The position numbers were made by a program, and so were the translations under genes. Source: a virus. Taken from it: a DNA stretch of 23,775 nucleotides. The notes below the pieces were generated by a model, which saw only the letters and a program-made list of their open reading frames with translations, was not told the origin of the DNA and did not search any database. The stretch lies in IMG/VR virus record IMGVR_UViG_3300034106_006613, positions 1-23,775 of that record; one strand, written 5' to 3'. Position 1 is the first letter of the stretch. Every line of letters begins with the position of its first letter. Below, piece by piece: positions 1 to 22,584 of the stretch.

Positions 1-351
1 ATTTACATATCCTGTTCCTGTAATCGATGGTAATAATCCACTTACGCTACTATTGAAATCTGTTATATTACTTGATAAATGATCGTGTCCGCTAACGCTT
101 ACTGGAATATTATTAATATAAAGATTACTATTAAAATTACCACTAATAGCACTCAAAACTCCGCTGATATTAGCATTTCCAGTAATATCTAAAATTGATT
201 TTAAACTATTCCAATTACTGTTTCCGTCTCCTATTTTATATATATTATTTGTAAGATCATATCCTGGTTCACCACTAGCTAATACTGGATTAGTAGAATT
301 CCATTGGGTTGATGTTCCTCGTCGTATTTGAAAAATATTATTAGCTGGCAT
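1..351 (-). CDS. Tail fibre protein, 5' part only (runs off the left edge)
   Basis: About 117 residues are visible; the gene continues past base 1. The N-terminus reads IFQIRRGTSTQWNS, then a GE-P-G-Y-D segment and YKIGDGNSNWNSL. This is the usual N-terminal attachment module of phage fibres (the Mtd-N-like 'RRGT..QW....L..GE.G...K.GDG...W' pattern), which links fibre to baseplate. It is followed by a VSGHDH segment with one H-x-H motif and a 'DFNSSVSGLLPSITG' spacer much like those in the 693-aa fibre upstream, so the two are probably related or act together. The start at base 351 is preferred over 357 because AGGA lies 6 nt before it, whereas the first ATG is only one base from that site. 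It is the last gene visible in the fibre operon. Confidence 0.75.
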   Translation of the reverse strand, partial: MPANNIFQIRRGTSTQWNSTNPVLASGEPGYDLTNNIYKIGDGNSNWNSLKSILDITGNANISGVLSAISGNFNSNLYINNIPVSVSGHDHLSSNITDFNSSVSGLLPSITGTGYVN

Positions 352-359
352 AGTCATTC

Positions 360-1265
360 CTATTTATATTTATTATATACATATTCAAGATCTATGGAAG
401 TTAAATTATAGCCACCACCAAGTTTATTCATAAAAGTGTTGACATCATTATATCTAATGCTAATAAAAGGACCAGCATTATGAAACCAAAATGCACATAA
501 CACAACCAATTCATTATCAATAATTAAAAATCCAGGATTACCACTATCTCCCGCCACCAGTGTTTCTGTAAAACTAAAAAATTGATCATTACTACTTAAA
601 TTATTAAATAAAATATTAGGAACAGGTATTAGTGGACTACCATCTCCTTTATCATAATTTCTACCCTCTAAGCCGTCAACCCTTTTAGGAATAGCCTTCT
701 CTTCCGCATCAAGAGCTAATCCGTATACAGGAGTAGTTTCTGATAATGACATATATGTACTGTAATTTAATGGTAATACTTTAGCAAATTTAATATTAGA
801 CGGCATATCACTATCTAATAAACCTATAGCTATATCAGCAAAAGGATCAAATTCATATTTTATTATTTTTCGAGTAACAATATTACTATCATCATCAACA
901 AAAAGTATAGGAGTGCCTCCACTAATTAAAGCTATAAAAAAATGCTTAGCTAATAGGATATGTCGTGGACTAATAAGTGTTCCAGCTCCAACCGTCCAAT
1001 TAGCTCCACTCAATTGAGCAGGGCTAAAACAGCTTATATTAGATACTCCATTAAGCCAACATGAAGAACTTCTGGGGAATCCGCTTGGTCCACCATAAGG
1101 ATTTCGAGAGGCGTATATTTTTCTATCTGTCGTTGGATTTTTCCCTGTTAATCTACTAATAAAAGAATTATTAATATGATTATTGATCACATTTTTATCT
1201 ATGGCTGGACCGGGTCTGTAAATTTTATTATTTTTTATTTTTCTAGATAGAGTTTTAAATATCAT
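360..1265 (-). CDS. Trypsin-like serine protease in the tail fibre operon
   Basis: 301 aa. The chymotrypsin-fold triad can be read in order: His108 in 'GAGTLISPRHILLAKHF' (compare 'TAAHC' in trypsin), Asp144 in 'FADIAIGLL' (compare 'DIAL') and Ser241 in 'VAGDSGNPGF' (compare 'GDSGGP'). The spacing, about 36 and 97 residues, fits the family. No signal peptide is seen; the first 50 residues are basic and polar and could anchor the protein in the virion. Its ATG overlaps the TGA of the 693-aa fibre gene (ATGA) and GGAGGA lies 5 nt upstream, so it is translated with the fibre. Possible roles, all inferred, are maturation of fibre proteins, cutting of host surface proteins at adsorption, or a structural domain that has kept its triad. 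The family call is firm; the role is open. Confidence 0.8.
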   Translation of the reverse strand: MIFKTLSRKIKNNKIYRPGPAIDKNVINNHINNSFISRLTGKNPTTDRKIYASRNPYGGPSGFPRSSSCWLNGVSNISCFSPAQLSGANWTVGAGTLISPRHILLAKHFFIALISGGTPILFVDDDSNIVTRKIIKYEFDPFADIAIGLLDSDMPSNIKFAKVLPLNYSTYMSLSETTPVYGLALDAEEKAIPKRVDGLEGRNYDKGDGSPLIPVPNILFNNLSSNDQFFSFTETLVAGDSGNPGFLIIDNELVVLCAFWFHNAGPFISIRYNDVNTFMNKLGGGYNLTSIDLEYVYNKYK

Positions 1266-3343
1266 GGGGTTCCTCCGTCTAAAATTAACCCCTGAACATT
1301 AGTTATACTAGAGCCTAAATTTATAGTAGACGATCCTAGAGTTATATAACTAAAAGCTAATTGATTATTGTCTACTCCACTATGTTTTATGGTCACCGCG
1401 CCACTAACAACACTAAAATCGTTACTACTAAAAGAGGCTATACCTAGTCCCGATGTAGAAGCATATAGTGTGTCAATATAATTTTTATTTACAGCATCTG
1501 TTCCAGAAGTTGGTGTTGCTAAATTAGTTAAGAGATAATTATTAAAAGAAACATTGCCGCTAGGAATTGTTAAATCATTAATTCTATTAAGTCTAACCCC
1601 AGTATTAAAGTCTGTAATTTCAGAATAAGTATGTTGGTGTCCCAATAAAGAAACTCCGCTAGTACTAATAAGTAAAGTATCAGTATTGCTATAATACGAG
1701 ACATCTATTCCTGCTCCCCCAGATATTGATGTAGACAGAGACGAATTAATCAATCCACTTGTTGCACTATTAAAATCCGTAATATTAGCAGAGATATGAG
1801 TATGTCCAACTAAGCTATAATCTCCACTAGGCTGTAATCCAGTAGAAGATATGGTTAGAGAGTTATTATTATCATCATAAGATAAAGAAATATAAGATCC
1901 AGCTTTTAATAAATCGTTTACTCTATCATCAACCTGTTCAGAAGATAGTCCAAGTTGACCAGTTACAGCAACAGTATAAATTCCACTATTTGTTGTAATG
2001 CTTACATTAGTTCCGCCTAAAATATTTTTAACTGGTAATAGTCCACTAACTGAACTATTAAAATCACTAATATTAGATGCTATATGATTATGAACTAAGT
2101 TTGCCTTTTGACCTAATCCGCTAGCTATTGTGGTAGCAAAATTAGGATCGTTTCCTAGAGCGGAGGCCAGCTCATTTAACGTATCAAGAGTACTCGGAGC
2201 AGAATTAACTAGACTACTAATTTCATTACGTACAAAAGCTGTACTAGCCGCTTGAGTATTGTTGGTACCACTAGATGCTGTTGGTACTGTTGGAACTCCA
2301 GAAAAATTAGGACTATTTAGTGGAGCATAGATTCCGCTAACTAAGCTATTTACTTCGCTGTTAAAATTTGTAATATCATTAGAACTATGAGTATGACCAT
2401 TAATACTATAGTTTCCTGATGGTTGTAATCCACTAACGCTAATAGTATAAGTGTTATTAGAGAAATTAGAAGATACATATTCAGATCCACTAATACTTGG
2501 TAATAAACCACTGATGCTAGTACTAAAATTAGTAATATCAGAAGTTGTATGACTATGAATACCGCTAGCATAAACCCCAGAAGGTTGCTTACTGTCTAAA
2601 GCAATTTGCAAACCAGTAACATCACCTATAATATGAAAATGTCCAACAATACTATAGTTGCCGCTTGGTTGTAAGTTTGCTAAAGTAATTCTTGAATCTA
2701 CCGAACTACTAAAGTCTGTGATCTCAGAACTAATATGAGAGTGAACACTATTAGCATAATTACCGGATGGTTGTTTAGAGTCTAATGCTAATTGTAAACC
2801 AGATACATCTGATATTGAATGTTGGTGTCCTTGTAGACTATAATTACCGCTAGGTTGTAATCCAGTCACACTAATTGTTAATTTATTATTTTCATCATCA
2901 TAATTTAATGTTGTATAATTACCAGAAACTAATAAACTACTAACCCTATCATCTACTTGTTCGCCAGTCAATCCAAACTGTCCTGTAACTGCTACAGTAA
3001 AAATTCCTTGATTATTAGCTATATCTATACCACTTCCAGCTAATAAATTTTGTACTGGCAAAAGATTAGTTGGTATACCACTTAATGATATTATTCCACT
3101 AGAATAATTAATACCACTAGTTCCTATCAAACCAGATAATCTTGAAATTGGTAAATTACCCACTGTCCAATCTAACGGATATCCTTGGGGTAAATCTCCA
3201 ACCAAAGGAATGTTAATAGAATTTATAATTTCAACATTTGACGGAGAAACTAGTTCTATCTCAATATTATTATTTGTTGCAATATTTGTTTCTATACTAA
3301 TAGAATTAGTAGTTTCTATAATTTCTATAGTAGGCTCACTCAT
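1262..3343 (-). CDS. Large repetitive tail fibre protein with H-x-H motifs
   Basis: 693 aa, low in Cys, rich in Ser, Gly, Asn and Thr. A unit of the type 'LQPSGNYS..GH.H....D' or 'KQPSG.YA...HSH....I..F' recurs along the chain, giving eight H-x-H motifs at residues 173, 201, 235, 263, 317, 418, 514 and 569. A larger block of about 90 residues is duplicated (about 94-184 and 435-525, each with 'TVAVTGQ.GL..EQVDDRV'). Residues about 350-412 carry the familiar fibre module 'NTQAASTAFV...DTLNELASALGNDPNFATT'. The last 60 residues ('NNQLAFSYITLGSSTINLGSS') look like a repeated beta-strand tip. In T4 gp37, H-x-H motifs bind iron along a trimeric needle, so a trimeric fibre with bound metal is inferred. 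ATGA overlaps couple it to both neighbours. Confidence 0.85.
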   Translation of the reverse strand: MSEPTIEIIETTNSISIETNIATNNNIEIELVSPSNVEIINSINIPLVGDLPQGYPLDWTVGNLPISRLSGLIGTSGINYSSGIISLSGIPTNLLPVQNLLAGSGIDIANNQGIFTVAVTGQFGLTGEQVDDRVSSLLVSGNYTTLNYDDENNKLTISVTGLQPSGNYSLQGHQHSISDVSGLQLALDSKQPSGNYANSVHSHISSEITDFSSSVDSRITLANLQPSGNYSIVGHFHIIGDVTGLQIALDSKQPSGVYASGIHSHTTSDITNFSTSISGLLPSISGSEYVSSNFSNNTYTISVSGLQPSGNYSINGHTHSSNDITNFNSEVNSLVSGIYAPLNSPNFSGVPTVPTASSGTNNTQAASTAFVRNEISSLVNSAPSTLDTLNELASALGNDPNFATTIASGLGQKANLVHNHIASNISDFNSSVSGLLPVKNILGGTNVSITTNSGIYTVAVTGQLGLSSEQVDDRVNDLLKAGSYISLSYDDNNNSLTISSTGLQPSGDYSLVGHTHISANITDFNSATSGLINSSLSTSISGGAGIDVSYYSNTDTLLISTSGVSLLGHQHTYSEITDFNTGVRLNRINDLTIPSGNVSFNNYLLTNLATPTSGTDAVNKNYIDTLYASTSGLGIASFSSNDFSVVSGAVTIKHSGVDNNQLAFSYITLGSSTINLGSSITNVQGLILDGGTP

Positions 3344-3738
3344 ATGTTACACTCTAGGGTATCATTAGTTTGACTAAATCTCTTAATTAAAGTGATAGTC
3401 CCATATAAAAGTCTAGTGGTATATTTGCCTCCACCTATATAGAAATCATCTGGAGATTGAAGTTCAAGATCATATTTAGCGTTAGTGAAATTAAAGTCAT
3501 TGGTTGTTGATGCTGGAAATTGTAGTATTATTTTACCATTAATTTCGTCCATTTCAAAACGATATAAATTATTAGTATTTTCTGTGGTAAAAGTTTGAAC
3601 TCCACTATTGCTTTTCCATACTAATCTGGCGCACCAGCCGCTCAAGTTGACCGGATTTCCTTCATTATTTTTGTATGTGAGAGACAAAGAGAAAGAAGAA
3701 CCTTGTTCTATACTAAAGTCGTATTTGGCAGCTTTCAT
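3340..3738 (-). CDS. Small beta-sandwich-like tail or fibre-associated protein
   Basis: 132 aa. It opens 'YDFSIEQGSSFSLSLTYKNNEG' and continues 'PVNLSGWCARLVWKS', later 'GKIILQFPASTT' and 'AKYDLELQS...LLYGTITL'. This string of short strands is a common pattern in small proteins coded just before fibre genes of tailed phages, thought to be baseplate or fibre-adaptor proteins. No catalytic motif is seen. AAGG lies 8 nt before the ATG. Its TGA overlaps the ATG of the 693-aa fibre, so the two are probably made in fixed ratio. It is the first gene after a 97-bp gap, so transcription may restart here. The fold and role are inferred from pattern and position. Confidence 0.6.
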   Translation of the reverse strand: MKAAKYDFSIEQGSSFSLSLTYKNNEGNPVNLSGWCARLVWKSNSGVQTFTTENTNNLYRFEMDEINGKIILQFPASTTNDFNFTNAKYDLELQSPDDFYIGGGKYTTRLLYGTITLIKRFSQTNDTLECNI

Positions 3739-3835: not shown

Positions 3836-4657
3836 TCATGGTAATCCTAAAATATTTGATCCAGCTACTCCTAACGGCTTTCTATTACAGGTCACATCTC
3901 CATTAATATTTTTTTTATTAAAGGAATTATTGTTGAATGTTGCATTTCCGGTAACGGTGCCTCTGTTGGTCGAACTGTCGTTGAACGTGGCATCTTCCTC
4001 GATAATGCCGCTGATGTTATTGTACGAACTATCATTAAATGTGGCATCAGTTAATACTCCCATATTGTATGAGTTTTCATAAAATGTAGAGTATCCTGAT
4101 ACCGTTGGAATTTGATAACCCAAATTGTGCGAATAACCGTAAAAAAAAGCGTTTCCTCCAACTATGTTTTGACCAGTAGGATCATTTATTGAGGTGTCAT
4201 CAAAGGTAGCATCACCAGTTATTGAGCCTGCGTTCCTTGAGTTTTGATTGAAAGTAGCATTTCCATCTACAAAACCTTCGTTTACAACACCACTATTAAA
4301 AATAACATCTTCATTTACTGTGCCGTAAACGGAATTAAATCCATTATTAAAGGTAGCGTTGCCGTTTATAACTCCATAAAATGTGATTGAAGTTTCCTGA
4401 TCCTCATATCCGTTAATACTACCGTCTAAAGTGGCCATTCCTGTAACATTAATGGATATTCCTAAGTTAGATGATATCATGGTAAAGTTAGAGACTGTTG
4501 GAATGGAACTACTACTATTGATATTAGCAACAGCAATAACATTATCACTACTGGTTGGCAAACCAGAAGCTTGAATAGAGTATCCGCTGTTTGTCCACCA
4601 ATTGTCTAGATTATTCCAGTTTCCGTCAACCGCTCCATTAAAATAAAAAGTAGCCAT
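3836..4657 (-). CDS. Beta-repeat protein, paralogue A (ATFN-type repeats)
   Basis: 273 aa. The N-terminal ~50 residues ('TFYFNGAVDGNWNNLDNWW', later 'GLPTSSDNV') nearly match those of the next gene upstream. From about residue 95 come nine or ten degenerate repeats of 15-20 residues, consensus (G/D)(N/D)ATFN(D/N).S.N.G.(I/V), for example 'DATFNDSSYNNISG' and 'GNATFNNNSFN'. Regular Phe/Asn spacing of this kind suggests a beta-solenoid. The C-terminus 'GVAGSNILGLP' matches 'GVNGSSILGIV' of the paralogue. It begins 1 nt inside the previous stop (TAATG), with AGGA upstream. It is probably a virion surface or fibre-associated protein by position. No enzyme motif is visible and the exact function is unknown. 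Confidence 0.7.
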   Translation of the reverse strand: MATFYFNGAVDGNWNNLDNWWTNSGYSIQASGLPTSSDNVIAVANINSSSSIPTVSNFTMISSNLGISINVTGMATLDGSINGYEDQETSITFYGVINGNATFNNGFNSVYGTVNEDVIFNSGVVNEGFVDGNATFNQNSRNAGSITGDATFDDTSINDPTGQNIVGGNAFFYGYSHNLGYQIPTVSGYSTFYENSYNMGVLTDATFNDSSYNNISGIIEEDATFNDSSTNRGTVTGNATFNNNSFNKKNINGDVTCNRKPLGVAGSNILGLP

Positions 4658-5553
4658 TATACTATTCCTAATATAGAGGATCCATTAACACCCTTTGTTC
4701 GATTAACAACTACAGTACCTAAACCAACTTTATTTATTGAGTTATCATTGAATATAATATTATCTACATTATCTATTACAGCATTATCGGTCATATAACT
4801 ATTATGGTTAAAAATAACTAATGAACTATGCACTACTGAACCATCTTCTTCAATATAACTATCATCATTAAAGATAACATTATCCGAAGCAGTATAGCCA
4901 TAATTACTTATATAACTATCATCATTAAATATAATATTATCTATAGCTTGTACTCCCGCTACTTCAGCAAGTACATAAGAACTATCATTAAATATAGCAT
5001 TAGATAATTTTAATCCCCAGTTCTGACTAACATAGGAATAATCATTGAAGGTTGCAGTACCAATAATATCTAATAAGTTTGTAGAAGAAGATATCCCCTC
5101 ATCAAAATGCGAATAATCCTTAAAAACAACATCTCCATCAATTTGTGCTGAGTCTATTCCTAGAATATATGAAGTATCATTTAGAATAACATTACCACTA
5201 ACAACACAACCAATACTAGCACTAGTATATAGAGATATATCACCATTTACTGTGGTGTGTCCGGTTATATTACTATTTCCATTCAGAATAGTTTCATTAG
5301 TAACATATATGGTTATACTATCTTCTTCTGTTTGCGGCTGGATATAAGAACCATTATTCATTGTTAAACTAAGTATAGTTATGGAACTTCCAGTATTACT
5401 TGTTACAGCACCTTCATTGAGTATCACATTGTCGCCACTAGAAGGTAAACTTGTTGCTTGATTTGAGTAGTTTGTTCCGTCAAAAGTCATCCACCAGTTA
5501 TCTAGTGTGGTCCATTCAGAGTCAACAGCACCATTAAAATAAAAAGTGGGCAT
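4657..5553 (-). CDS. Beta-repeat protein, paralogue B (IFND-type repeats)
   Basis: 298 aa. It shares the head 'TFYFNGAVDSEWTTLDNWW' and tail 'GSSILGIV' with paralogue A, but the repeats have drifted: 'NVILNDTSY', 'DVVFKDYSH', 'TATFNDYSY', 'NAIFNDSSY', 'NIIFNDDSY', 'NVIFNDDSY', 'LVIFNHNSY', 'NIIFNDNS'. That gives eight units of about 17-25 residues. Conserved ends with a variable repeat body are what one expects of tandem duplicates whose middle parts evolve for binding. The Shine-Dalgarno site is weak (AGG), while the stop overlaps the start of paralogue A. It is probably displayed on the virion near the fibres, by context only. A repeat protein with no enzymatic role is the simplest reading. 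Confidence 0.7.
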   Translation of the reverse strand: MPTFYFNGAVDSEWTTLDNWWMTFDGTNYSNQATSLPSSGDNVILNEGAVTSNTGSSITILSLTMNNGSYIQPQTEEDSITIYVTNETILNGNSNITGHTTVNGDISLYTSASIGCVVSGNVILNDTSYILGIDSAQIDGDVVFKDYSHFDEGISSSTNLLDIIGTATFNDYSYVSQNWGLKLSNAIFNDSSYVLAEVAGVQAIDNIIFNDDSYISNYGYTASDNVIFNDDSYIEEDGSVVHSSLVIFNHNSYMTDNAVIDNVDNIIFNDNSINKVGLGTVVVNRTKGVNGSSILGIV

Positions 5554-5564
5554 AAAATACCTAA

Positions 5565-5858
5565 TCAGTTGATGAACAAATCTGTTAGTACTTTAGAAGC
5601 ATTGTTTCCTAATAATTCTAAAATTCTAGCTTCAGCTTGAACTTGAGTATAATCCCCTATATTTGTGTACTCTTGATCTTTCCATAAGACTAAAGCTTTT
5701 GGTATGCCCATTATTTTAGCAATAACGTTTTTTCTTTTACTATTATCTATCAATGTAATATCAAGCTCGTTTAATGTAATAGGATTAAAACTTCGTATTG
5801 TTCCATCTTTTCTTGTAAAGCTTGGAGGAGTAAAAGATATCGGGTTTGGTAGATTCAT
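5565..5858 (-). CDS. Small phage protein of unknown function
   Basis: 97 aa, not recognised with certainty. It starts 'MNLPNPISFTPPSFTRKDG', has a 'PITLNELDITLIDNSKRKNVIAKI' middle and a 'LVLWKDQEYTNIGDYTQ' segment, and ends in a helix 'EARILELLGNN...LTDLF'. This layout (short beta head, 'LW...Y...GDYTQ', then a helix) is of the kind seen in small conserved proteins of phage tail regions. AGGA precedes the ATG. It lies between a fibre-like protein (3 bp upstream) and paralogue B (11 bp downstream), so it is translated as part of the fibre operon. A baseplate or fibre accessory role is a guess from position. Confidence 0.6.
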   Translation of the reverse strand: MNLPNPISFTPPSFTRKDGTIRSFNPITLNELDITLIDNSKRKNVIAKIMGIPKALVLWKDQEYTNIGDYTQVQAEARILELLGNNASKVLTDLFIN

Positions 5859-5861
5859 ATA

Positions 5862-6440
5862 TTAGTATCCTGGTACAAAGGCGATAATGTCCCATTTGTT
5901 TCGACTACTATCATAAGTAGCGCCTAACATGTCCATAGTTCCGCTACTAGTACTAAATGGTAATGGACTAGAGGCACTACTTGGAATTCTAAAATTATTG
6001 CCAAGAGTTAGTGGGATGCCACTGTTAGCATAACTTATTCTCCATCTTAAACTTTGACCATCAACAGAACCAGAAGGATTAGCTAAGATACCACTAGAGG
6101 CTAATGTAAGATCAAAAATATCTCCAAGAGTTGCGTTAGTATTAATTGTGCCACTAACACTACCTAATTGAACAACTGTTGTTGATCCTCCTCCACCCAT
6201 TGTCCCACTAGAAACAATTGTTAAGGTATTATTCTCGCTATGATGAACAAAAGCTATGCCACTGCCAGCAAGTAAACTAGTATTAAAATAAGAACTTAAA
6301 TCCCCTCCACCCAAATTAACTAAACTTGCGGGAATTTTTTTTGTTATAGCCTCTCCTGCTGGATCATCCATTATAAGTAATAAATCATCGCTAGTTATAC
6401 CTGTTGCTAACGGTAAATCATTAATTCTATAAATTGGCAT
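5862..6440 (-). CDS. Tail fibre or short fibre-like structural protein
   Basis: 192 aa. The N-terminus 'YRINDLPLATGITSDDLLLIMDDPAGEAITKKI' is a frequent phage fibre/baseplate head ('..LP....I...D.LL...D.....TKKI'). Then come Ser/Gly-rich stretches including 'LLAGSGIAFVHHSENNTLTIVSSG', which resembles the 'NLLAGSGIDI...LTISVTG' blocks of the 693-aa fibre. The C-terminus 'YDSSRNKWDIIAFVPGY' is typical of a small globular tip ('YD....KW.....PGY'). A strong AGGAG lies upstream. It is probably a virion protein of the adsorption apparatus. The shared spacer pieces suggest exchange of fibre modules within this operon. Confidence 0.65.
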   Translation of the reverse strand: MPIYRINDLPLATGITSDDLLLIMDDPAGEAITKKIPASLVNLGGGDLSSYFNTSLLAGSGIAFVHHSENNTLTIVSSGTMGGGGSTTVVQLGSVSGTINTNATLGDIFDLTLASSGILANPSGSVDGQSLRWRISYANSGIPLTLGNNFRIPSSASSPLPFSTSSGTMDMLGATYDSSRNKWDIIAFVPGY

Positions 6441-6443
6441 GTA

Positions 6444-6650
6444 TTAAGCTCCTAATAAGTTATTATTGCCAATAGTATAATATGTTATATTACTGAATCT
6501 AGTATCATATTTATTTTGTATATCATCAATAACTGGTTTATTGCTTACATAGTTATTTTGCTGATAAAAGCGACTTTTAGAATAAACACTTACTACACTA
6601 CCATTTTTTATTGGGTTAGCGCTAACGCTTTTGCTAATATCATTAGCCAT
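6444..6650 (-). CDS. Small hypothetical protein, first gene of the fibre module
   Basis: 68 aa, polar, rich in Asn, Ser and Tyr, with no recognised domain. It is supported by a strong ribosome binding site (GGAG, then ATTATT, then ATG), the same arrangement used at the likely start of the protease-scaffold gene, and by tight spacing (3 bp) to the next gene. Composition fits a structural phage protein. Its gene starts just after the homing-endonuclease-like gene, so that gene sits between the capsid and fibre modules rather than inside either. Function unknown. Confidence 0.55.
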   Translation of the reverse strand: MANDISKSVSANPIKNGSVVSVYSKSRFYQQNNYVSNKPVIDDIQNKYDTRFSNITYYTIGNNNLLGA

Positions 6651-6682
6651 AATAATCTCCTAAGAGAAAAGTAGAAAATATA

Positions 6683-8077
6683 CTACTCTATACACCTAAA
6701 AGAATATTTGGCTTGTCCACAATCATATATCTTAAATAGGTTATGATCATATCCACTATTGCCTGGAAATTTAAGTCTATGAAAAGTTTCAAAACCGTCT
6801 GTCCATCGAAAACTAGGATAAACATGAATATATTCAAATCCTAAACTAGCTAAATAATCTCCTTTACCATATCTACGATCTATAAAAGTAAAGATACTCT
6901 CTGGGTTATATTTTTTAATACTATATTTTAAAAGCTTACTAAAAGCTCCAGCCACACTATGCTCAAGAATATTGCAAAATCTACTAACTTCATAAACGTT
7001 TCCTTTGCTTCTTTTAACTCTTAAAGCAGCTACTATTCTATCATCTTTTTTCAATGCTAAAGTTTGTCCTCTTCCCTTACCCATTAAATGATTAGTTTCA
7101 AAATAATTGTCCGCAGTTTTATCATCTAAACTAACCAATTCACATTTTCGTGCAAAAATTCGTTTACATTTATTAAGCTTATTTAAGACCACACTTTTTA
7201 CAATTTTAAATTTATCTCTTAATTCATCTTCTCTAAAAAATAAACTATCATAACCACTTTGTTCATAACTTTGTTTTTTATTAATATGATAGTTTGGATC
7301 TATTTTTGCAGCATCGCTGTGCCAGTATAGTCCGTCTACCTCTATAAGTAGATTGTCTATTTTGAAATCAGCAATTTTTTTATTTATTCTAAATTGTGAT
7401 TCATAATTAATGTTGTGTTGTTGTAAAAATATCTCAAAATTTTTCTCTAATTTGGTTTTAAATGGTTCCATTTTTACAGCTTCTTCGAAGCCATACTGAT
7501 TTACCAATTTGCCAAATTGGGATCTAGAAAATCCTATTTCCCTAGCTATTTCGGGTCGAGTTTTGCCTTCATATATTTTAATAATCCCTTTATTTATTTT
7601 GGTTTGTTTCATTTTTTTTGCGGCTTCTTTGGCCGTATCTTCGTATTTCATAATATTATCCACACCATACCTATCTTGTATAGTAGCTTTTTGTTTATTT
7701 GAAATTTCTTTGACTTGCATAGGAAAAATATTTCCATATTTTAATAAATTTGTTTGCTTAGCCTGATTTTTAAATTCTTCTGATTGTAATCTATCTGTAT
7801 TGGTATCTCTAATTTTATCTCTAATCTCTTGTCTTTGAGCAGAATTTTTTACTCCATGAGTAACTAAACTAATTTCTTCTCTTTTTTTATATCTACATGC
7901 TGTATTAGCACAGGAATCTTTTTTGATAACATCTCTTTGTTTCATATAAAATTTATAGTTTTTAGTATTAGGTTCTCTACAATAATCACAAATAAAACAT
8001 ACTAATTTATTTGATCCTAAAGATAAAGATTCTGGTAAATAACCATATTTATCTAATGTTAACTCCGCATTTATCAT
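6683..8077 (-). CDS. Homing-endonuclease-like protein with PD-(D/E)xK (Vsr-like) nuclease core
   Basis: 464 aa. Residues 27-61 hold two Cys pairs (CFICDYC and C..TAC) of a likely zinc site. Residues 70-165 carry tandem 'HGVKNSAQRQEI', 'KYGNIFPMQVKEI' and 'RYGVDNIMKYEDT' units, a DNA-contact repeat found in phage homing enzymes. Residues 173-197 look like a helix-turn-helix ('TRPEIAREIGFSRSQFGKLV'). The nuclease core is 'IADFKIDNLLIEVDGLYWHSD', with Asp237, Glu246, Asp248 and His253 as likely active-site residues, as in Vsr/EDxHD enzymes such as I-Bth0305I. The C-terminal 150 residues ('RFCNI..HSVAGAFSKLLK', 'IFTFIDRRYGKGDYLASLGF', 'YDCGQAKYSF') are the domain often found after such nucleases. 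It is free-standing, has AAGGA upstream, and lies just past the capsid terminator. It probably spreads by cutting a related phage at this site. Confidence 0.8.
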   Translation of the reverse strand: MINAELTLDKYGYLPESLSLGSNKLVCFICDYCREPNTKNYKFYMKQRDVIKKDSCANTACRYKKREEISLVTHGVKNSAQRQEIRDKIRDTNTDRLQSEEFKNQAKQTNLLKYGNIFPMQVKEISNKQKATIQDRYGVDNIMKYEDTAKEAAKKMKQTKINKGIIKIYEGKTRPEIAREIGFSRSQFGKLVNQYGFEEAVKMEPFKTKLEKNFEIFLQQHNINYESQFRINKKIADFKIDNLLIEVDGLYWHSDAAKIDPNYHINKKQSYEQSGYDSLFFREDELRDKFKIVKSVVLNKLNKCKRIFARKCELVSLDDKTADNYFETNHLMGKGRGQTLALKKDDRIVAALRVKRSKGNVYEVSRFCNILEHSVAGAFSKLLKYSIKKYNPESIFTFIDRRYGKGDYLASLGFEYIHVYPSFRWTDGFETFHRLKFPGNSGYDHNLFKIYDCGQAKYSFRCIE

Positions 8078-9703: not shown

Positions 9704-10414
9704 TTATAGTTTTTTACCTAGTCTACTCGAAACAAAATCTATTAGAGCGGCGCGTGTGGTTTCCACAGCATCTTCTGTTTCTCCACCTACACCAAGATTA
9801 ACACTTGCTTCAACTTCAGCTGTTTCCAGAACTTCTGGATCAGTTGATTCTGTAGAAGCTTTTTTCTTCATCATCATTGCTTCTTCATCTTCAACCATTT
9901 TTTCCTCTTCTTTTTTCATAGGAGGTTTTTTGGCAGCGATAAGAGCGGCGATGGTGTCAAAAGCATCATCATCCAAATGTTCAAATTTATCTACTGTGGC
10001 GGAGGCCACTTCTGATTCAATTCCATTTTCGATGAGTGCGGCCATTCTTTTCATTTTCTTTTCGGCCTTCATCATCTTTTCTTCTTTATCTTTATAAGCA
10101 GCGATAGTCTCAAGAGCACTATCTAGTTCTGCTTTCATTTTTTTCATTTCTTCTTCTTTATCTTCCATATCTTTTTGCATTTTTTTAGCAGCTTCTTCTT
10201 TTTCGAGTCTTAAAGCTTCGATTTCTGCTCTTGTTTGAGTAAGAGCTTCTTCACTAGCTTTAACAGTTTCGGATAGTTCTTGAATTTTGGTTTCAGCAGC
10301 ACTGACTGAGGCGTAGGCTTCTCTAACAGCAGTATTGCAATCTACTGATGCTACTGTGTTTGTTAATGTCTGAATGCTGCTTTTGATATCTACAATTTCG
10401 TTTTCTAGATTCAT
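9704..10414 (-). CDS. Possible nested scaffold protein (internal start)
   Basis: The ATG at 10414 lies in frame within the protease-scaffold gene exactly where the protease domain ends and the coiled coil begins. GGAG stands 9 nt upstream of it. The product, 236 aa starting 'MNLENEIVDIKSSIQ', would be scaffold without protease, as with lambda Nu3 inside gene C. The sequence shows the site and the domain boundary; use of the start is inferred. Confidence 0.45.
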   Translation of the reverse strand: MNLENEIVDIKSSIQTLTNTVASVDCNTAVREAYASVSAAETKIQELSETVKASEEALTQTRAEIEALRLEKEEAAKKMQKDMEDKEEEMKKMKAELDSALETIAAYKDKEEKMMKAEKKMKRMAALIENGIESEVASATVDKFEHLDDDAFDTIAALIAAKKPPMKKEEEKMVEDEEAMMMKKKASTESTDPEVLETAEVEASVNLGVGGETEDAVETTRAALIDFVSSRLGKKL

Positions 10415-11236
10415 TGTAATATTCTCCACTTCTTGTTTAGGATCGATATTAGATACACCTGATGTTGCCAAAATTAGTTTTTTTTCTGAATCATCAATAT
10501 CATTTTTAGTAAAAATAATACTTTCTGGATTAGCAGGCTTGTCAACAAAACCTTTACCTGAAAAGGTTATATTTCGTAAAACTCTACCAATTTTGTATTG
10601 TTGATGTTCTCCTCTTCCACCATAAGCTCTTAAATGTTTTGTTAAATAAGCTGTTTGTTCATTACGAGCTAAAATTTTATATTCTCCAGTTTCTTTATTT
10701 AATAACCCATAATCAAAGCCTTTAAATAAACATTCCATACTAACATATTTTTGACCGTTTTCAATTTCACTAATGAGTTTTTCAGCCCTTTCTCTTAGTT
10801 CTGGCTTAGAAAACGCTCTATAAATAACGGATCCTGTTAAAATATGAAATTTTTCTGGAAGTTCTTCTGATGTGGTACTATCGCTAATAAGTTGTCCATC
10901 TGTATTAATTGGCCAATTAGATGTTATATGGCCTATTATCAAACTTTCATCATGTTCTAAATTAGTTGGTTTATCTTCTGGAGTATTTCTGGCTGCCCAA
11001 ATTTCTTGCTTATCAAAAATATCATCATTTTTATTCCAGTTAGATGTGACTAGAATAGATTGAAGATAATATAAATCTTGATCTTCTAATGAGGCTAATG
11101 ATTTAATATTTTGTAAATTGTGTCTAGCTAGAGCTTTATCAATACACGGCTCAGCTAAACTTGCATAACTAATACTGTTAGCTTTTTCAATTGCTGTAGC
11201 TATACCATCTAAATATTCTTGGTGATAAATATGCAT
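9704..11236 (-). CDS. Prohead maturation protease fused to scaffold
   Basis: 510 aa from the preferred start. The first ~245 residues are a prohead-protease-like domain: 'TNLEHDESLIIGHI' with a candidate catalytic His, 'KYVSMECLF' with a candidate Ser, and 'ITFSGKGFVDKPANP' near the end, the usual order in this family. Residues ~275-400 are a charged coiled coil (runs of E, K, A and M), the scaffold that sets the shell and is later degraded. Acidic/Met-rich linkers and a short C-terminal helix 'TTRAALIDFVSSRLGKK', probably for capsid binding, follow. The ATG at 11248 overlaps the portal stop, but a second ATG at 11236 has GGAG 6 nt before it and is the better start. A further in-frame start at 10414 may give scaffold alone. 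Confidence 0.8.
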   Translation of the reverse strand: MHIYHQEYLDGIATAIEKANSISYASLAEPCIDKALARHNLQNIKSLASLEDQDLYYLQSILVTSNWNKNDDIFDKQEIWAARNTPEDKPTNLEHDESLIIGHITSNWPINTDGQLISDSTTSEELPEKFHILTGSVIYRAFSKPELRERAEKLISEIENGQKYVSMECLFKGFDYGLLNKETGEYKILARNEQTAYLTKHLRAYGGRGEHQQYKIGRVLRNITFSGKGFVDKPANPESIIFTKNDIDDSEKKLILATSGVSNIDPKQEVENITMNLENEIVDIKSSIQTLTNTVASVDCNTAVREAYASVSAAETKIQELSETVKASEEALTQTRAEIEALRLEKEEAAKKMQKDMEDKEEEMKKMKAELDSALETIAAYKDKEEKMMKAEKKMKRMAALIENGIESEVASATVDKFEHLDDDAFDTIAALIAAKKPPMKKEEEKMVEDEEAMMMKKKASTESTDPEVLETAEVEASVNLGVGGETEDAVETTRAALIDFVSSRLGKKL

Positions 11237-11247
11237 AATAATCTCCA

Positions 11248-13452
11248 TTAGTTATTGTTATTATACACCAATAAATAGAATGATGATTTAGCCTGTTTAT
11301 AGTCTTCAGCTAATAAAGAATCATTAAGTGAATTTGATATATTTTTTAAATATTGTTGATAAAATTTATATAGCTCTAAATTATAAATATCATTAACAGA
11401 AGCCGCTGCTACGACCACAGATTCTTCATCTATTTTTGAAAAAGGTTTTATGCAGAATAGTATTTTTGTTTTTGTCTCTTCTAACTCTTTATATTCTTGG
11501 GCGGTTAGGCTTCTTACATTTTTTTTATTATAAAAATCTAATAAAATTGGATTCATTATTTCATTAATTTTATCTTGTGTTTTGTTAGCCCATATAAGTA
11601 AACTTGCTCCTGTCTGTGGGGCGAATTCTTTTTGTTTTCGTGGTTTTTGATCCTTTGAAGTTTTTGGTCTTCCTTGTCCTGGTACTCCCGGCAGCGATTC
11701 TGGAGAATCGCTTGCCAACGGGGTTGGTTTACTAGGTTTCATCTGTTGTTGTAGTTCTAGTGGACTTGATTCACCTTTTTTCTTTTTCTCTAATTCTAAT
11801 CCAACTTCACTAGGCGCTACTGTACCAGATTGTAAAATAATTTTTTTAAGAGATAATTCTGGAGTTGGGTCATGCCATGGGCCAGCTTTTTTAACCATTC
11901 GATCTCCGTTTCTTTCTCTATATTCTCTATTTAGTCTGACTTTCTCTATATCTGGATCTAAACCAAATCTAGTTTGTATATGTTCATCGCTGATAATATT
12001 TCTATCTGCTAATTGAACTAGCAGTGCTTTTTCAGAATCCTCATTACTAAGATCCATTCTATCAAACTCTACCTTAGCAGGATATTTAAATCCCATAGCT
12101 TTTTGAATTAGTGCTATTTCTTGCTCCCAGAAACTAACTAAAACATCTCGTCCGTATTGAAGTCTTTGAGTTAAAGTTTTGAGACTTATGAAATTATTAG
12201 TTGTTCCCGCTGCTCCGTAAGTACCAGTAAGAGTAGGAGGAATACCTAATCCTGCATAAATACTATTTAAATGAGGAGTATACTTTCCTTCTCCTAAGAA
12301 TTGATGAACATTAGTATTGCTTTCTATTAATTCGAGATCAGGCCCCCAGATCAAATCCATAGTGCCTCCACCAACATTATTTCCTAATATGCTAGCTAAT
12401 TTAGCTGTTGCTGCTTTTGTAGGAGCTATCTTGTGTTCTAGACTTCCTAATTTAAAAATTCGTATATTACTTATAGCTCCATCAAGAGCTGCCATATCTG
12501 CTAATTTAAGCTTCTCATAAACTGTAATATCATCCATAATAGCATATATCATAGGATATGCCCAAGCCTGCCAATCATCTTTTTTATAATGAAAAACAAG
12601 AGTCTTATTAGGATCCAACGGATAATTCTTTTTAGTTTTAGCTGCTTCTACGATTTGTTCTGGTAATTGACTAACTATATTTTTTTCAGCTTCTGTTTTG
12701 GGACTATTAATAATTTTTCTTAACATAGGAGGAACTTGTAACTCATACGTTTTATTATCTACGAAGGAAGATAAAGATCCCGCACTAACATCAACAAATA
12801 CTGGATCAATAAAAGTATACTTCCAAGGAATTTCTCTTTTTTCTATATCTGCTATAGGAAAATCAGTAATTATAGAATCACTAGCTCCTAATGATTGATA
12901 TAATTTATCTGCTACTTTTAAACTAATTTTAGCTGTTCTTCTATCTACTACTATATTACCACTTTTATATAGATTATTTAAAAATCTTTCACTACGATCT
13001 TTACCATTAATTTTTTTAAACCATTGACGATAAAATCTTTCTATTCTTTTATTTCTATGTACTAGTCTTATTCCTTGACTAGCAAAATCTCCCATGAGAT
13101 CAATAACGTTTTTGACCAAACCTACTCTTTGATAAATATCATCCGCTCTTCTTAGTATCGCTTTAACTTTGTTTGGAGGAGCTTCTTCTGGTCTAAAATT
13201 GTAATAATCGCTTTTAGTTAATCCTGGGCGACCTCCAGTAGGACCATCTAGATTAGAAAAATCATGATAATATCTACGACCACTACCGGCGGCGGTTGCT
13301 TTATCTATTAATGTATATTCATCCAAAGAGGATGCTGTAGATTTTAAAGCCTCTTTTTTAGATTCTAAATCATCTCCCCACGTAACATAAGCATCTTCTG
13401 GTATAGTATTGACATTATCAACAATATCTGCTTTTGTTTTATGTTTGGCCAT
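11248..13452 (-). CDS. Portal protein
   Basis: 734 aa. It forms the dodecameric DNA gate at one capsid vertex. The N-terminal part 'YYHDFSNLDG', 'DDIYQRVGLVKNVIDLMGDFA' and 'FYRQWFKKI' and the wing/clip region 'AWAYPMIYAIMDDITVYEKLKLADMAALDGAI' match the usual portal pattern. Later, 'LNSIYAGLGIPPTLTGTYGAAGTTNNFISLKTLTQRL' is the hallmark 'lG.pp......G....' loop followed by the long helix. Residues ~520-620 are a Pro/Lys/Gln-rich linker and the last ~110 residues a helical extension that many portals lack; it may contact the packaged DNA or the next head protein. It lies between large terminase and protease, and its TAA overlaps the first ATG of the protease gene. A TATAAT-like box about 36 bp upstream (13488-13493, minus) could add transcription here. 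Confidence 0.88.
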   Translation of the reverse strand: MAKHKTKADIVDNVNTIPEDAYVTWGDDLESKKEALKSTASSLDEYTLIDKATAAGSGRRYYHDFSNLDGPTGGRPGLTKSDYYNFRPEEAPPNKVKAILRRADDIYQRVGLVKNVIDLMGDFASQGIRLVHRNKRIERFYRQWFKKINGKDRSERFLNNLYKSGNIVVDRRTAKISLKVADKLYQSLGASDSIITDFPIADIEKREIPWKYTFIDPVFVDVSAGSLSSFVDNKTYELQVPPMLRKIINSPKTEAEKNIVSQLPEQIVEAAKTKKNYPLDPNKTLVFHYKKDDWQAWAYPMIYAIMDDITVYEKLKLADMAALDGAISNIRIFKLGSLEHKIAPTKAATAKLASILGNNVGGGTMDLIWGPDLELIESNTNVHQFLGEGKYTPHLNSIYAGLGIPPTLTGTYGAAGTTNNFISLKTLTQRLQYGRDVLVSFWEQEIALIQKAMGFKYPAKVEFDRMDLSNEDSEKALLVQLADRNIISDEHIQTRFGLDPDIEKVRLNREYRERNGDRMVKKAGPWHDPTPELSLKKIILQSGTVAPSEVGLELEKKKKGESSPLELQQQMKPSKPTPLASDSPESLPGVPGQGRPKTSKDQKPRKQKEFAPQTGASLLIWANKTQDKINEIMNPILLDFYNKKNVRSLTAQEYKELEETKTKILFCIKPFSKIDEESVVVAAASVNDIYNLELYKFYQQYLKNISNSLNDSLLAEDYKQAKSSFYLLVYNNNN

Positions 13453-16033: not shown

Positions 16034-16295
16034 TAGCTTTATCTGATAAAATCTTTAAAAATATTGATGAATATATACTTTCTAGTCCAGTAATCATTTT
16101 ATGATGTTTATGACATAATGTGATACCATTTGAAACCAAATATCTTAATCCTGGATTATCAGCCCATTTTAGTATATGATGAGCATTTAATTTTTTAGAT
16201 TGATCGCAATATGGCCACTGACACTTCCAATTATCTCTGGTATAAACTTGTAGTCTCCATTTTTTATAAATAGGATCATTATAGTTTCTTTTCAT
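16020..16295 (-). CDS. HNH endonuclease
   Basis: 91 aa. The HNH motif is clear: Cys25 and Cys30 ('CQWPYC'), His39-His40 in 'LNAHHILKW', Asn56 in 'SNGITLC', and Cys61 with His64/His65 in 'CHKHH'. The four metal ligands, catalytic His and Asn are all present. HNH proteins coded beside the terminase are required for terminase cutting in several cos-type phages such as HK97, so a packaging role is favoured over a homing role. It overlaps the dehydratase gene by 17 nt and the ERCC4 gene by 14 nt. It lacks a good Shine-Dalgarno site, which fits coupled translation. Confidence 0.88.
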   Translation of the reverse strand: MKRNYNDPIYKKWRLQVYTRDNWKCQWPYCDQSKKLNAHHILKWADNPGLRYLVSNGITLCHKHHKMITGLESIYSSIFLKILSDKANEKS

Positions 16296-17283
16296 TTTGA
16301 TAATAACTAATATCGCTAGTTACCATTTCTTTTACTAGTTGATCAAATGATATTTTAGGCTTCCATCCAAGATTATTTAATGCTTTGGAACTATCTCCCT
16401 TAAGATAATTAACTTCGCATGGTCTATAGAACTCAGGATCAATATACACATAATCTTTATAATTTAAGCCGATTAATCCAAATGATCTATTTAAAAAATC
16501 CTCTACAGTATATGATATGCCTGTGCTAATAACATAATCATCAGCAATACTGCTATCTAGCATAAGAAACATAGCTTCTACATAATCTTTAGCATGACCC
16601 CAATCTCTACTAGCAGATAAATTACCTAAATGTAATTTTTGATTATTATGCAGTAAGTTGTTGGATAATTGGCCTATATATTTGGTAATTTTTCGTGTAA
16701 CAAAATTTTCTCCTCGTCGTGAACTTTCATGGTTAAATAATATACCAGAGCATGAGAATAAATTATAGGCTTCACGATAAATTTGAACTAATCTATGGGA
16801 TGCTAATTTGGCAATAGCGTATGGACTTTGAGGTAAAAATGATGTATTTTCATTTTGAAATTTTTGTCCATTAATTTCAGTATAATTACTACCAAACATT
16901 TCGCTGGTGCTAGCTTGATAAAATTTAGTCTGTGGACTATCTTGTTTTATAGCTTCTAATAAATTAATAACTCCTATAGTATCAATTTGGAATGTTGTGG
17001 ATGGTTGTTTAAAGCTGGTTCCAACATGACTTTGGGCGGCTAAATTATATAAATGATCTGGCTGATATTTTCTGAGTATATTACTACATCCCGACGGATC
17101 TGTAATATCAAATTCTTCTAAAGTTAAATTTGGATGATTTAGAATATGTTTAATTCTACCTGTTGTATCTGTGCTGGATCTTCTATATAATCCTATAACC
17201 TTATATTCTTTTTCTAGGAGTAATTCGGCCAAATAACTACCATCTTGTCCGGTAATTCCTGTTATAACTGCTGTTTTAGTCAT
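16279..17283 (-). CDS. gmd: GDP-mannose 4,6-dehydratase
   Basis: 334 aa, an extended short-chain dehydrogenase that converts GDP-D-mannose to GDP-4-keto-6-deoxy-D-mannose, precursor of GDP-fucose, GDP-rhamnose and related sugars. Visible signs are the nucleotide loop 'GITGQDGSY' (Gly9, Gly12, Gly15), 'LYNLAAQSHV', the catalytic set Thr126/Glu128 ('STSEMFG') with Tyr155-x3-Lys159 ('SPYAIAK'), 'LFNHESSRRGENFVTRKI', 'LGNLSASRDWGHAKDYVEAM' and 'YRPCEVNYLKGD'. Length matches the family and nothing is broken, so it should be active. It sits inside the packaging operon, 4 nt after the small terminase candidate and overlapping the HNH gene, which is an unusual place. It may alter host surface sugars to block superinfection, or supply sugars for phage components (inference). 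Confidence 0.95.
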   Translation of the reverse strand: MTKTAVITGITGQDGSYLAELLLEKEYKVIGLYRRSSTDTTGRIKHILNHPNLTLEEFDITDPSGCSNILRKYQPDHLYNLAAQSHVGTSFKQPSTTFQIDTIGVINLLEAIKQDSPQTKFYQASTSEMFGSNYTEINGQKFQNENTSFLPQSPYAIAKLASHRLVQIYREAYNLFSCSGILFNHESSRRGENFVTRKITKYIGQLSNNLLHNNQKLHLGNLSASRDWGHAKDYVEAMFLMLDSSIADDYVISTGISYTVEDFLNRSFGLIGLNYKDYVYIDPEFYRPCEVNYLKGDSSKALNNLGWKPKISFDQLVKEMVTSDISYYQNEKKL

Positions 17284-20037: not shown

Positions 20038-22584
20038 TTACACAGTTGAAGTAGGAGTTGGCGTAAGTGTTGGAGTTGGAGTATTGGTTAGTATTATAGT
20101 AGGTGTGAGGGTTGGTGTTGGTGTGACTGTGTTAGTTGGAGTACTCGTTGGTGTGACTGTGTTAGTTGGAGTTGGTGTTGCTGTAGATACAGCTTCTATG
20201 GTCAGAATAGATGTTGATGAATCATATGTTGCATTATATGTTCCAGTAACTCCAATAAGCGTTATATTTTCTGGAATATAAGATTGTACTGTTGGAGAAT
20301 TAAATATTTTAAAATAATCTCCTACTGATGGTTCATTATTAAAATAGCAAGTCATTGTAGATGATGTAAATACAACACTACTCAAACTAAAATTAGTATT
20401 TTCGTTTCTCCAGCCAGGGACATAATTCTGATACATAGACGGACTAGAGACTTTAACCGATCCATAGGCTATATCATAATTTATGATTGAAGATGGTAAA
20501 TATGTGAAATCCAACCATACCATTCCTGTCATATTAGAAGTTCCAAATTTTATACTTATTTCTGGATTAGCATTACCATCTTGTTTTTGCCACGAAGATG
20601 GTGAAGTTAAAAATCTAACAACTCCTCCGTCATCACAGGCTAATGTTAAAGAATCACTACCAATCCTAAATGCTGAATTAGCGTCAAAAACTCCCAAAAC
20701 CCCGGTTTGACTGGGATAAGAACTTCCGCCTAAAATAACTTCAGAATTTGTAATTCCAGATGGTATTTCTAATGCTCTGGAAAAAGTCGAACCTCCTCTT
20801 GCATTTAATGGTATTTCTGTTTCATCAAATTCAAATGCTCGTTGAGCCATTAATAAAGATACTGGACCAGTATGACTAGAACTTCCAAGTCTAGGAATAG
20901 AACTATTTTGTGCTCCAATAATACTACTCCCGCCACTACCACCGTAAGCATCTCCTGCTAAAATAATGGTTCCTTCTTTAAATAATAAGAACTCGCTTCC
21001 TGATCCTGATCCTCGGGTTCTCCATATATTATTACGAGTTAAAACCCAAGTACCAGTTCCTTCTTTTTGTATTCTGATTTTTGTATCAGTATTATAGAAT
21101 ACTCTACCCACAGCATTATGCTCTGTACTAGATCCGCTAAGAATTAATGTTCTTTCTGGCATTGGAAATGGATTATATGGACATTTAGGAACATTTATTA
21201 TAGTATCCATTTGTACGGGAATATTTGTATTTGCTAATAGAGTTGTATTTTTCTCTATCGGAAATGAGTAGTTATATAGTCCACTAACTGGTATTATTGC
21301 TTCTCCTTCACACTCATAACAAAAACGGAAAACAACCGAGGTGTTTATTCCATCTCCATAATTATCTCGGGATGCTACTGTAAAAGTGCGAGGACCATCA
21401 TATGTAAAGCAATGATCTATGATATGACCAGAATTACATGGATGACCATTTAAAAATTCATTATTTTGAATAACATTACCATTAAGTAACAAATCATCAT
21501 TAACTTTTCCTATAATATGCATTATAGTAGGTATATTTATACTATTAGGTATGGTGAAATTTTGTGATCCTGCTATGCGAAATACTTCACATGGTTGTTG
21601 GCCTGTATTTCCAATGATAGAATCAGAATAATTATATATTAGGGGTGTTGTTGTACTATAATAATCGTCACATAATGAGCAAGGACAACCACAACTTCCA
21701 GGATTTAAACTATAACTCCATACCGGAGGACCTGTAGGATCACCAGTTTCTTCACAAGAAGTTATAATTCCTGTAATAGAAATATCACCATCAGGACAAT
21801 CTGTAGATACTGTATTTGACCATTTTTCACAACCTTCTACTAAAAGATCACAATTAATAACTGATAATATTGAATGAATTCCGTCTCCTAATGCTTTTGT
21901 AGTCATTCCTGACCAACTGCATGTATAAGGATCAAAAGAGTATGATATTGGAATTGGTTCTACTTCACAAGGAGGAGAAACGTCTAATAATGCTTGACCA
22001 TTCCATTCAGTATAACAACATTCTGGCATAGGGGATGGTGTTGGGTCTGGTGTTGGCTCTGGAGTTGGGTCTGGCGTTGGCTCTGGCGTTGGCTCTGGAG
22101 TTGGGTCTGGCGTTGGGTCTGGTGTTGTTGTGCTAGTCGGAGTTGATGTGCTAGCTGGTGTTGTCGTATTCGTTGGTGTAGCGCTATAAGTTGGAGTAAC
22201 CGTATTAGTTGGAGTAACCGTATTAGTTGGAGTAACCGTATTAGTTGGAGTAACCGTATTAGTTAGAGTAACCGTATTAGTTGGAGTTACCGTATTAGTT
22301 GGAGTTACCGTATTAGTTGGAGTAACCGTATTAGTTGGAGTTACCGTATTAGTTGGAGTTACCGTATTAGTTGGAGTTACCGTATTAGTTGGAGTAACCG
22401 TATTAGTTGGAGTTACCGTATTAGTTGGAGTAGCGCTATTAGTAGGCGTTGGAGTAAACGTATTTGTAGGAGTAATAGTAGGTGTTGCTGTTCTGGTAGA
22501 AGATGGCGTAACCGGAATTGCTGGTGCAGGACAGCATTGTGCTATTTTATTGTCTACTTCTGGTATATCGTATTTTATAGGCAT
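20038..22584 (-). CDS. Large PT-repeat, Cys-rich surface or tail protein
   Basis: 848 aa. Residues ~33-185 are Thr/Pro repeats: 13 copies of (T/A)PTNTV, then seven PDPT/PEPT units, a stalk-like linker. Residues ~188-440 hold about 25 Cys in scattered pairs, e.g. 'CGCPCSLC', suggesting disulphides or metal. Around residues 500-550, 'IQKEGTGTWVLTRNN...LFKEGTIILAG' matches the autotransporter-associated beta-strand repeat (PATR), which suggests a beta-helix. The rest is beta-rich ('VILGGSSYPSQTGVLGVFDANSAF'), closing with another PT-rich tail. No signal peptide or membrane anchor is visible, so a virion adhesin is favoured over a secreted protein. This gene has no Shine-Dalgarno site; TATAAT lies 9 nt before the ATG, so a leaderless mRNA is possible. 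Confidence 0.7.
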   Translation of the reverse strand: MPIKYDIPEVDNKIAQCCPAPAIPVTPSSTRTATPTITPTNTFTPTPTNSATPTNTVTPTNTVTPTNTVTPTNTVTPTNTVTPTNTVTPTNTVTPTNTVTPTNTVTLTNTVTPTNTVTPTNTVTPTNTVTPTYSATPTNTTTPASTSTPTSTTTPDPTPDPTPEPTPEPTPDPTPEPTPDPTPSPMPECCYTEWNGQALLDVSPPCEVEPIPISYSFDPYTCSWSGMTTKALGDGIHSILSVINCDLLVEGCEKWSNTVSTDCPDGDISITGIITSCEETGDPTGPPVWSYSLNPGSCGCPCSLCDDYYSTTTPLIYNYSDSIIGNTGQQPCEVFRIAGSQNFTIPNSINIPTIMHIIGKVNDDLLLNGNVIQNNEFLNGHPCNSGHIIDHCFTYDGPRTFTVASRDNYGDGINTSVVFRFCYECEGEAIIPVSGLYNYSFPIEKNTTLLANTNIPVQMDTIINVPKCPYNPFPMPERTLILSGSSTEHNAVGRVFYNTDTKIRIQKEGTGTWVLTRNNIWRTRGSGSGSEFLLFKEGTIILAGDAYGGSGGSSIIGAQNSSIPRLGSSSHTGPVSLLMAQRAFEFDETEIPLNARGGSTFSRALEIPSGITNSEVILGGSSYPSQTGVLGVFDANSAFRIGSDSLTLACDDGGVVRFLTSPSSWQKQDGNANPEISIKFGTSNMTGMVWLDFTYLPSSIINYDIAYGSVKVSSPSMYQNYVPGWRNENTNFSLSSVVFTSSTMTCYFNNEPSVGDYFKIFNSPTVQSYIPENITLIGVTGTYNATYDSSTSILTIEAVSTATPTPTNTVTPTSTPTNTVTPTPTLTPTIILTNTPTPTLTPTPTSTV
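22034..22130 (-). repeat. 12-bp tandem repeat coding PTPD/PTPE
   Basis: About seven to eight 12-bp units coding alternating PTPD and PTPE (order D, D, E, E, D, E, D). The acidic repeat follows the neutral TPTNTV block, making a charged second part of the stalk. Unit length is a multiple of three, so copy-number change would not shift the frame. Confidence 0.8.
22193..22426 (-). repeat. 18-bp tandem repeat, 13 copies, coding TPTNTV
   Basis: Thirteen exact-length 18-bp units (234 bp). Reading along the plus strand, a single synonymous position (GTA or GTT for Val) gives the order A A A A A T T A T T T A T, and unit 5 alone has a Pro-to-Leu change. Near-identity of units points to recent expansion by slippage or unequal crossing over, and to likely length variation between relatives. 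Confidence 0.95.

Follow-up and report, generated by a model that had tools for sequence, protein, structure and literature searches.

Prohead (head maturation) proteases are phage-encoded, adopt folds other than that of chymotrypsin and are coded in the capsid operon. Phage enzymes that clear the host surface are mostly regarded as glycan-degrading, and the tailspike depolymerases cut glycans using folds unrelated to that of chymotrypsin-like proteases. Canonical trypsins are rare in phage records, and the trypsin fold can also serve non-catalytic roles. Among published descriptions, one cluster of phages of Alphaproteobacteria is said to have a 'trypsin-like serine protease' (PMC10783043), and a weak similarity to trypsin was noted for phi29 p9 (PMC11476376); a virion-borne family of S1 proteases was not found described in the literature searched.

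The gene analysed here lies in an IMG/VR virus record of 23,775 nucleotides (referred to throughout as the window) and codes for a predicted protease that resembles the prohead enzymes in being phage-encoded and differs from them in fold and gene position. Tailspike depolymerases, tail-carried enzymes that clear the host surface, offer an analogue of its proposed working, with the difference that the window enzyme is a predicted protease. The Ig-like domains of phage virions are likewise grafted onto unrelated virion proteins, to which pattern the protease domain adds a conserved catalytic triad. With the S1/PA-clan proteases (chymotrypsin, trypsin, thrombin) the window protein shares a predicted double β-barrel, the order and context of His, Asp and Ser, and a GDSG-P motif; it differs from them in showing 10-13% identity in structural alignments, in having GDSGNP in place of GDSGGP, in lying below detection by Pfam Trypsin and, at the level of the family, in a specific N-terminal helix region. 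In the trypsin/chymotrypsin zymogens, activation cleavage creates a new N-terminal Ile/Val that forms the Asp194 salt bridge; an IVGG-type motif for such a site was not recognised in the family sequences read.

A collection of 50,697 phage records was searched for further examples. Only MW202510, from an uncultured podovirus, matched the family queries convincingly, so that the collection holds a single, unannotated member. The protein concerned (UOF78081.1, annotated as hypothetical) belongs to the same family, has the same triad and follows a fibre-like gene, which it overlaps at the end of the structural operon, but it is 26% identical to the window protease, carries an extra N-terminal region and comes from a different phage type; MW202510 also has a separate protease gene adjoining its capsid gene. 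Bovine trypsin as query retrieved 1 of the 50,697 records at E<=0.01, gp109 of Rhodococcus phage Shagrat, a trypsin-like phage protease like the window protein, which was not retrieved by the family queries and which, unlike the window gene, is located among DNA-binding, glycosyltransferase and HNH genes and not among tail genes. The closest viral model in BFVD was an uncharacterised protein of an uncultured phage. The enzyme class is known; its deployment as a tail domain that is grafted widely appears to be undescribed.

The genes of the window considered here are listed in Table 1. The protease gene is situated within the fibre cluster, ~7 kb from the capsid gene and not beside the portal and major capsid genes. 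A 4-bp overlap joins its start codon to the stop of the 693-aa fibre gene; its own stop at 360 is followed by the next gene with an ATG at 351 and a further in-frame ATG at 357, giving a gap of 8 or 2 bp. The three catalytic residues are found within TLISPRHILLAKH (H108), FADIAIGLLDS (D144) and AGDSGNP (S241), and the 301-aa protein is without a signal peptide. Both the chymotrypsin-family triad and the gene order given in the original prediction, in which the start overlaps one fibre stop and 8 bp separate the gene from the fibre gene that follows, were thus confirmed by sequence and coordinates, as were the H-x-H fibre and the pair of repeat paralogues.

Table 1. Coordinates of the protease gene and of other genes in the window.
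Feature	Position	Strand	Details
Chymotrypsin-like serine protease gene (predicted)	360..1265	minus	301 aa, ATG start; catalytic H108, D144, S241
Tail fibre with phage tail repeats (H-x-H)	1262..3343	minus	693 aa; PF12789 E 2.4e-19; PHROG tail fibre families
Next fibre gene, 5' part, runs off the window	1..351	minus	full-length L001 orthologue (5172-6842) matches tail and spike PHROGs
PHROG 1084 protein, recurrent fibre and protease partner	3340..3738	minus	PHROG 1084 E 1.6e-15; synteny
Two repeat paralogues	3836..5553	minus	273 and 298 aa; ~32% mutual identity; N-terminal domain fused behind the protease in L012/L013
97-aa protein and 192-aa fibre-like protein	5565..6440	minus	both recur near the protease in relatives
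Possible nuclease	6683-8077	minus	464 aa; between capsid gene and fibre cluster
Capsid gene	8194-9204		
Gene between portal and capsid genes	9704-11248	minus	514 aa; no family match
GDP-mannose 4,6-dehydratase-like gene	16279-17283	minus	in a virus record
Repeat protein	20038-22584	minus	848 aa; long TNTVTPTNTVTP repeat, second Thr/Pro-rich segment at C-terminus; no Pfam match

Outside the fibre cluster, the 464-aa open reading frame has a 70%-identical copy on the contig L001 (325-1713), where it stands directly before the PHROG-1084 gene, so that gene order differs between the two. The N-terminal half of the 514-aa protein, read by eye, resembles a prohead protease, joined to a region that is charged and scaffold-like.

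A template-free AlphaFold2 model of the window protease, built from 12 homologues, reached a pLDDT of 74 and a pTM of 0.77, with dips in confidence at approximately residues 51-90 and 201-240. Foldseek gave 605 PDB matches to this model at E<=1e-3, and the 50 matches listed comprised S1-type chains such as chymotrypsin, thrombin, plasmin and tryptase, together with HGF, a growth factor that is S1-like and non-catalytic, and with chains from an umbrella toxin particle. Alignment to delta-chymotrypsin using VIA-align covered 186 residues (model residues 44-282) with a Z score of 14.4 and 3.6 A. At the sequence level, a family profile aligned, with weak scores, to chymotrypsinogen C at the His motif and to a plasminogen activator at the Ser motif, and Pfam Trypsin (PF00089) was matched by 2 of 50 relatives (best E 7e-5). 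The window protein itself had no meaningful match in Pfam (including PF00089 at its curated cut-off), PHROGs, among them the prohead protease families, or a single-sequence PDB search. Three further matches were set aside: a weak one of the window protease to Castor1_N, regarded as chance; a weak PDB profile match to a GH6 glucanase, which covered a short stretch; and one to bglH, which fell before the protease domain on sequence resembling fused Ig domains. Structure prediction and, weakly, sequence therefore support the chymotrypsin fold, and the assignment of the window protein as a two-β-barrel, S1-like (PA clan) protease is, as a prediction, well supported. A fold of another kind, which the original prediction had named as speaking against it, was not obtained.

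Successive scans of IMG/VR viral contigs returned 2, 17, 104 and 189 relatives, the last set including matches through fused domains only (e.g. L160), and well over 100 viral members of the family were detected. The triad was present in 80 of 80 retained loci of the first large set and invariant in its 59 non-redundant domains (59/59); in the combined set 82 of the 84 non-redundant domains had it intact and the remaining two are partial matches, and it is also kept in a homologue 47% identical to the window protease. Loss of the triad in all close relatives, likewise named beforehand as adverse, did not therefore occur. In the scan yielding 104 relatives the Ser motif formed part of one of the two search patterns, and because neither H108 nor D144 was in any pattern, the conservation of these two residues constitutes independent evidence. 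Conservation extends to D240, the residue before the serine, and to E234, seven positions before it (Glu in 58 and Asp in 1 of 59 non-redundant domains), a residue that may determine the P1 preference, a basic P1 being the guess. Three members (L007, L008, L009) hold two protease domains in one 634-aa open reading frame, a tandem duplication with the full triad in both copies.

Relatives are joined to virion parts of several kinds. On the contig L107 the protease is fused behind the T4 gp15 tail-sheath stabiliser (PF16724, E 1.5e-61; PHROG 227, E 1.8e-64), and the same architecture was found on an independent contig, L124, with 55% identity over 522 aa; since two independent contigs carry it, the gp15 fusion is not an assembly chimera. 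The gene upstream of the L124 fusion resembles, in our reading, a T4-type neck protein. In the L124 protein (1079-2653) the Ser motif reads YDSASP against GDSGNP, with the triad aligned and the oxyanion-hole glycine altered. Two further contigs (L017, L018) place the protease C-terminal of a tail-like protein, joined via a Pro-Glu linker; the carrier ends without a protease in eight other contigs, and one relative of it matches minor tail PHROG 290 (E 8.5e-6). Identification of the L017 and L095 carriers as tail tubes was not supported by hhalign and PDB profiles (the AF2 model of the L017 carrier had a pLDDT of 51), and they are therefore called tail-like only. In L012/L013 a domain corresponding to the N-terminal one of the repeat paralogues in the window comes after the protease, Big_2 Ig-like domains occur in 8 of 50 representative members, and other members bear FN3, LamG-like or collagen segments together with tail PHROG matches. 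In L109 and L099 the protease shares one protein with segments that look like β-propellers and with Cys- or Ser/Thr-rich low-complexity stretches.

The original prediction had proposed a search for the same protease beside fibre genes in metagenomic phages, and relatives proved to be widespread in IMG/VR and to adjoin tail genes: the adjoining genes matched tail fibre, collagen-like tail and virion families, with sparse annotation, no more than 2-3 of the 94 neighbours matching each tail PHROG. On the same contigs, genes at distances above 4.5 kb matched mainly replication and metabolic families (PhoH, dCMP deaminase, RNR, DNA polymerase and HNH), with a few structural genes among them. The window protease, a separate polypeptide, has no recognisable virion-attachment domain; the fusions of its relatives and their tail-gene neighbourhood nevertheless strongly suggest that it is virion-borne. 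Of the virion protease originally predicted, the intact S1-type triad and the association with fibre genes were upheld and fusions of relatives to virion parts were added, from which its place on the particle is inferred. In place of the accompanying suggestion of an undescribed adsorption system, a more fitting description is that of a protease family, itself undescribed, whose members are grafted onto many different tail proteins; the H-x-H motif is a common phage tail repeat.

Comparison with L001 indicates how the gene moves. Positions 1 to about 2673 of the window, comprising the 3' half of the fibre gene, the protease gene and the start of the next fibre gene, show 93% nucleotide identity to L001, against ~52-78% for the DNA further upstream; given this difference, these three parts are taken from the sequence to have been exchanged as one block. 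The window protease is 98% identical to the L001 copy (4258-5163), and of the 35 codons that distinguish the two, 28 are synonymous and 7 non-synonymous changes. With the triad kept in homologues, these mostly synonymous changes and the chymotrypsin fold of the model, the open reading frame is not a chance one. Residues 257-264, a strand and loop that according to the alignment should line the S1 pocket, hold four of the seven replacements, a clustering noticed post hoc and only suggestive. Relative to the PHROG-1084/fibre pair, the protease comes first in L002 and L010 and last in the window, and from this varying position it is concluded that the protease moves within the cluster.

Cellular relatives were sought in 392 sampled Planctomycetota genomes, that phylum alone being covered. 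Strong matches were obtained on two chromosomes of one small class (L030 and L031; E 2e-48 and 2e-51; 33-36% identity), with the same protease domain and an intact triad; they differ from the window protein in having a signal peptide (clear in L031), another N-terminal domain and a position outside any phage gene cluster, no recognisable phage genes being found around them. On account of the clear signal peptide of the L031 homologue, this type of enzyme is taken to work outside the cell in Planctomycetota. Two weak matches in the phylum were not counted as members, one (G304) lying within an ATPase-like open reading frame and the other (G017) being a distant secreted trypsin-like protein. A pattern scan of genome contigs gave one relative, on a Phycisphaerae MAG contig that is considered a phage or prophage because of its portal-, capsid- and neck-like genes. 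The viral contig L014 carries DUF1501 and DUF1552 genes (10377-13115); these are common in Planctomycetota, not exclusive to them, and possibly hint at a planctomycete-like host. A planctomycete host for part of the family is a reasonable guess, in a comparison confined to Planctomycetota, and the phages with gp15 fusions may have other hosts. The protein tree of the family has long branches and few supported forks, and in view of this poor support no claim is made as to whether transfer ran from cells to phages or the reverse.

On balance, the window gene probably codes for an active protease carried on the tail that cuts an extracellular protein on the host surface or close to it, the activity, the location on the particle and the external substrate each being inferred from the comparisons above. 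The phage-producing cell would make the protein with no signal peptide, and the protein would be built into the tail beside the fibres to which it is translationally coupled and face outward on the free particle. Its target there would be a protein of the host surface or its vicinity, such as an S-layer or wall protein, a pilus, a receptor-shielding protein or matrix, which would help the phage to reach its receptor or to penetrate, as a proteolytic counterpart of the tailspike depolymerases. Coupling to the fibres and exchange together with fibre segments would be expected of a morphogenetic protease that, as the particle is assembled, cleaves neighbouring fibres or the protein that carries it, for example to mature or release fibre trimers. 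This is considered unlikely, as the fusions of relatives involve gp15, tail-like proteins and Ig domains, beyond any linkage to fibres, the place relative to the fibre varies between the window and L002 or L010, and no cleavage signature was identified in the fibres; the fusions to the tail terminator, tail-like proteins and Ig domains make an enzyme maturing fibres alone less likely than an outward-facing one.

A virion-borne protease could instead degrade trapping matrix or debris, remove decoy vesicle proteins or act on competitors. The evidence for a virion location applies here too, and the neck (gp15) fusions are not obviously at the receptor-contacting tip; the window gene, however, belongs to the fibre cluster and travels together with segments of fibre genes, a sign of host contact that leaves such roles rather improbable. 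It is very improbable that the enzyme acts inside the cell against host or defence proteins during infection and came to the fibre cluster by chance: the missing signal peptide and the separate polypeptide in the window agree with this, but tail-protein fusions and a tail-gene neighbourhood recur across many contigs, and the cellular homologue L031 has a signal peptide. Least credible is a catalytically dead trypsin-fold module that serves for binding only, as the Umb1 umbrella toxin particle chains among the best Foldseek matches might suggest, given a triad intact in nearly all domains whose His and Asp, in distinction to the Ser motif, were absent from the search patterns.

A wider proposition, about as likely as not, is that environmental tailed phages possess a widespread, uncatalogued class of virion enzymes, chymotrypsin-like proteases mounted on fibres, tail or neck proteins that cut host protein coats and have perhaps been exchanged with secreted bacterial proteases, for example those of Planctomycetota. 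If true, these would be the protein-cutting equivalent of the polysaccharide depolymerases. Well over 100 viral members with an intact triad and tail fusions that include T4 gp15 suggest that uncultured aquatic phages commonly employ proteolysis at the surface of their particles, which would make the family a target for proteomics and enzymology and a candidate route through proteinaceous cell envelopes.
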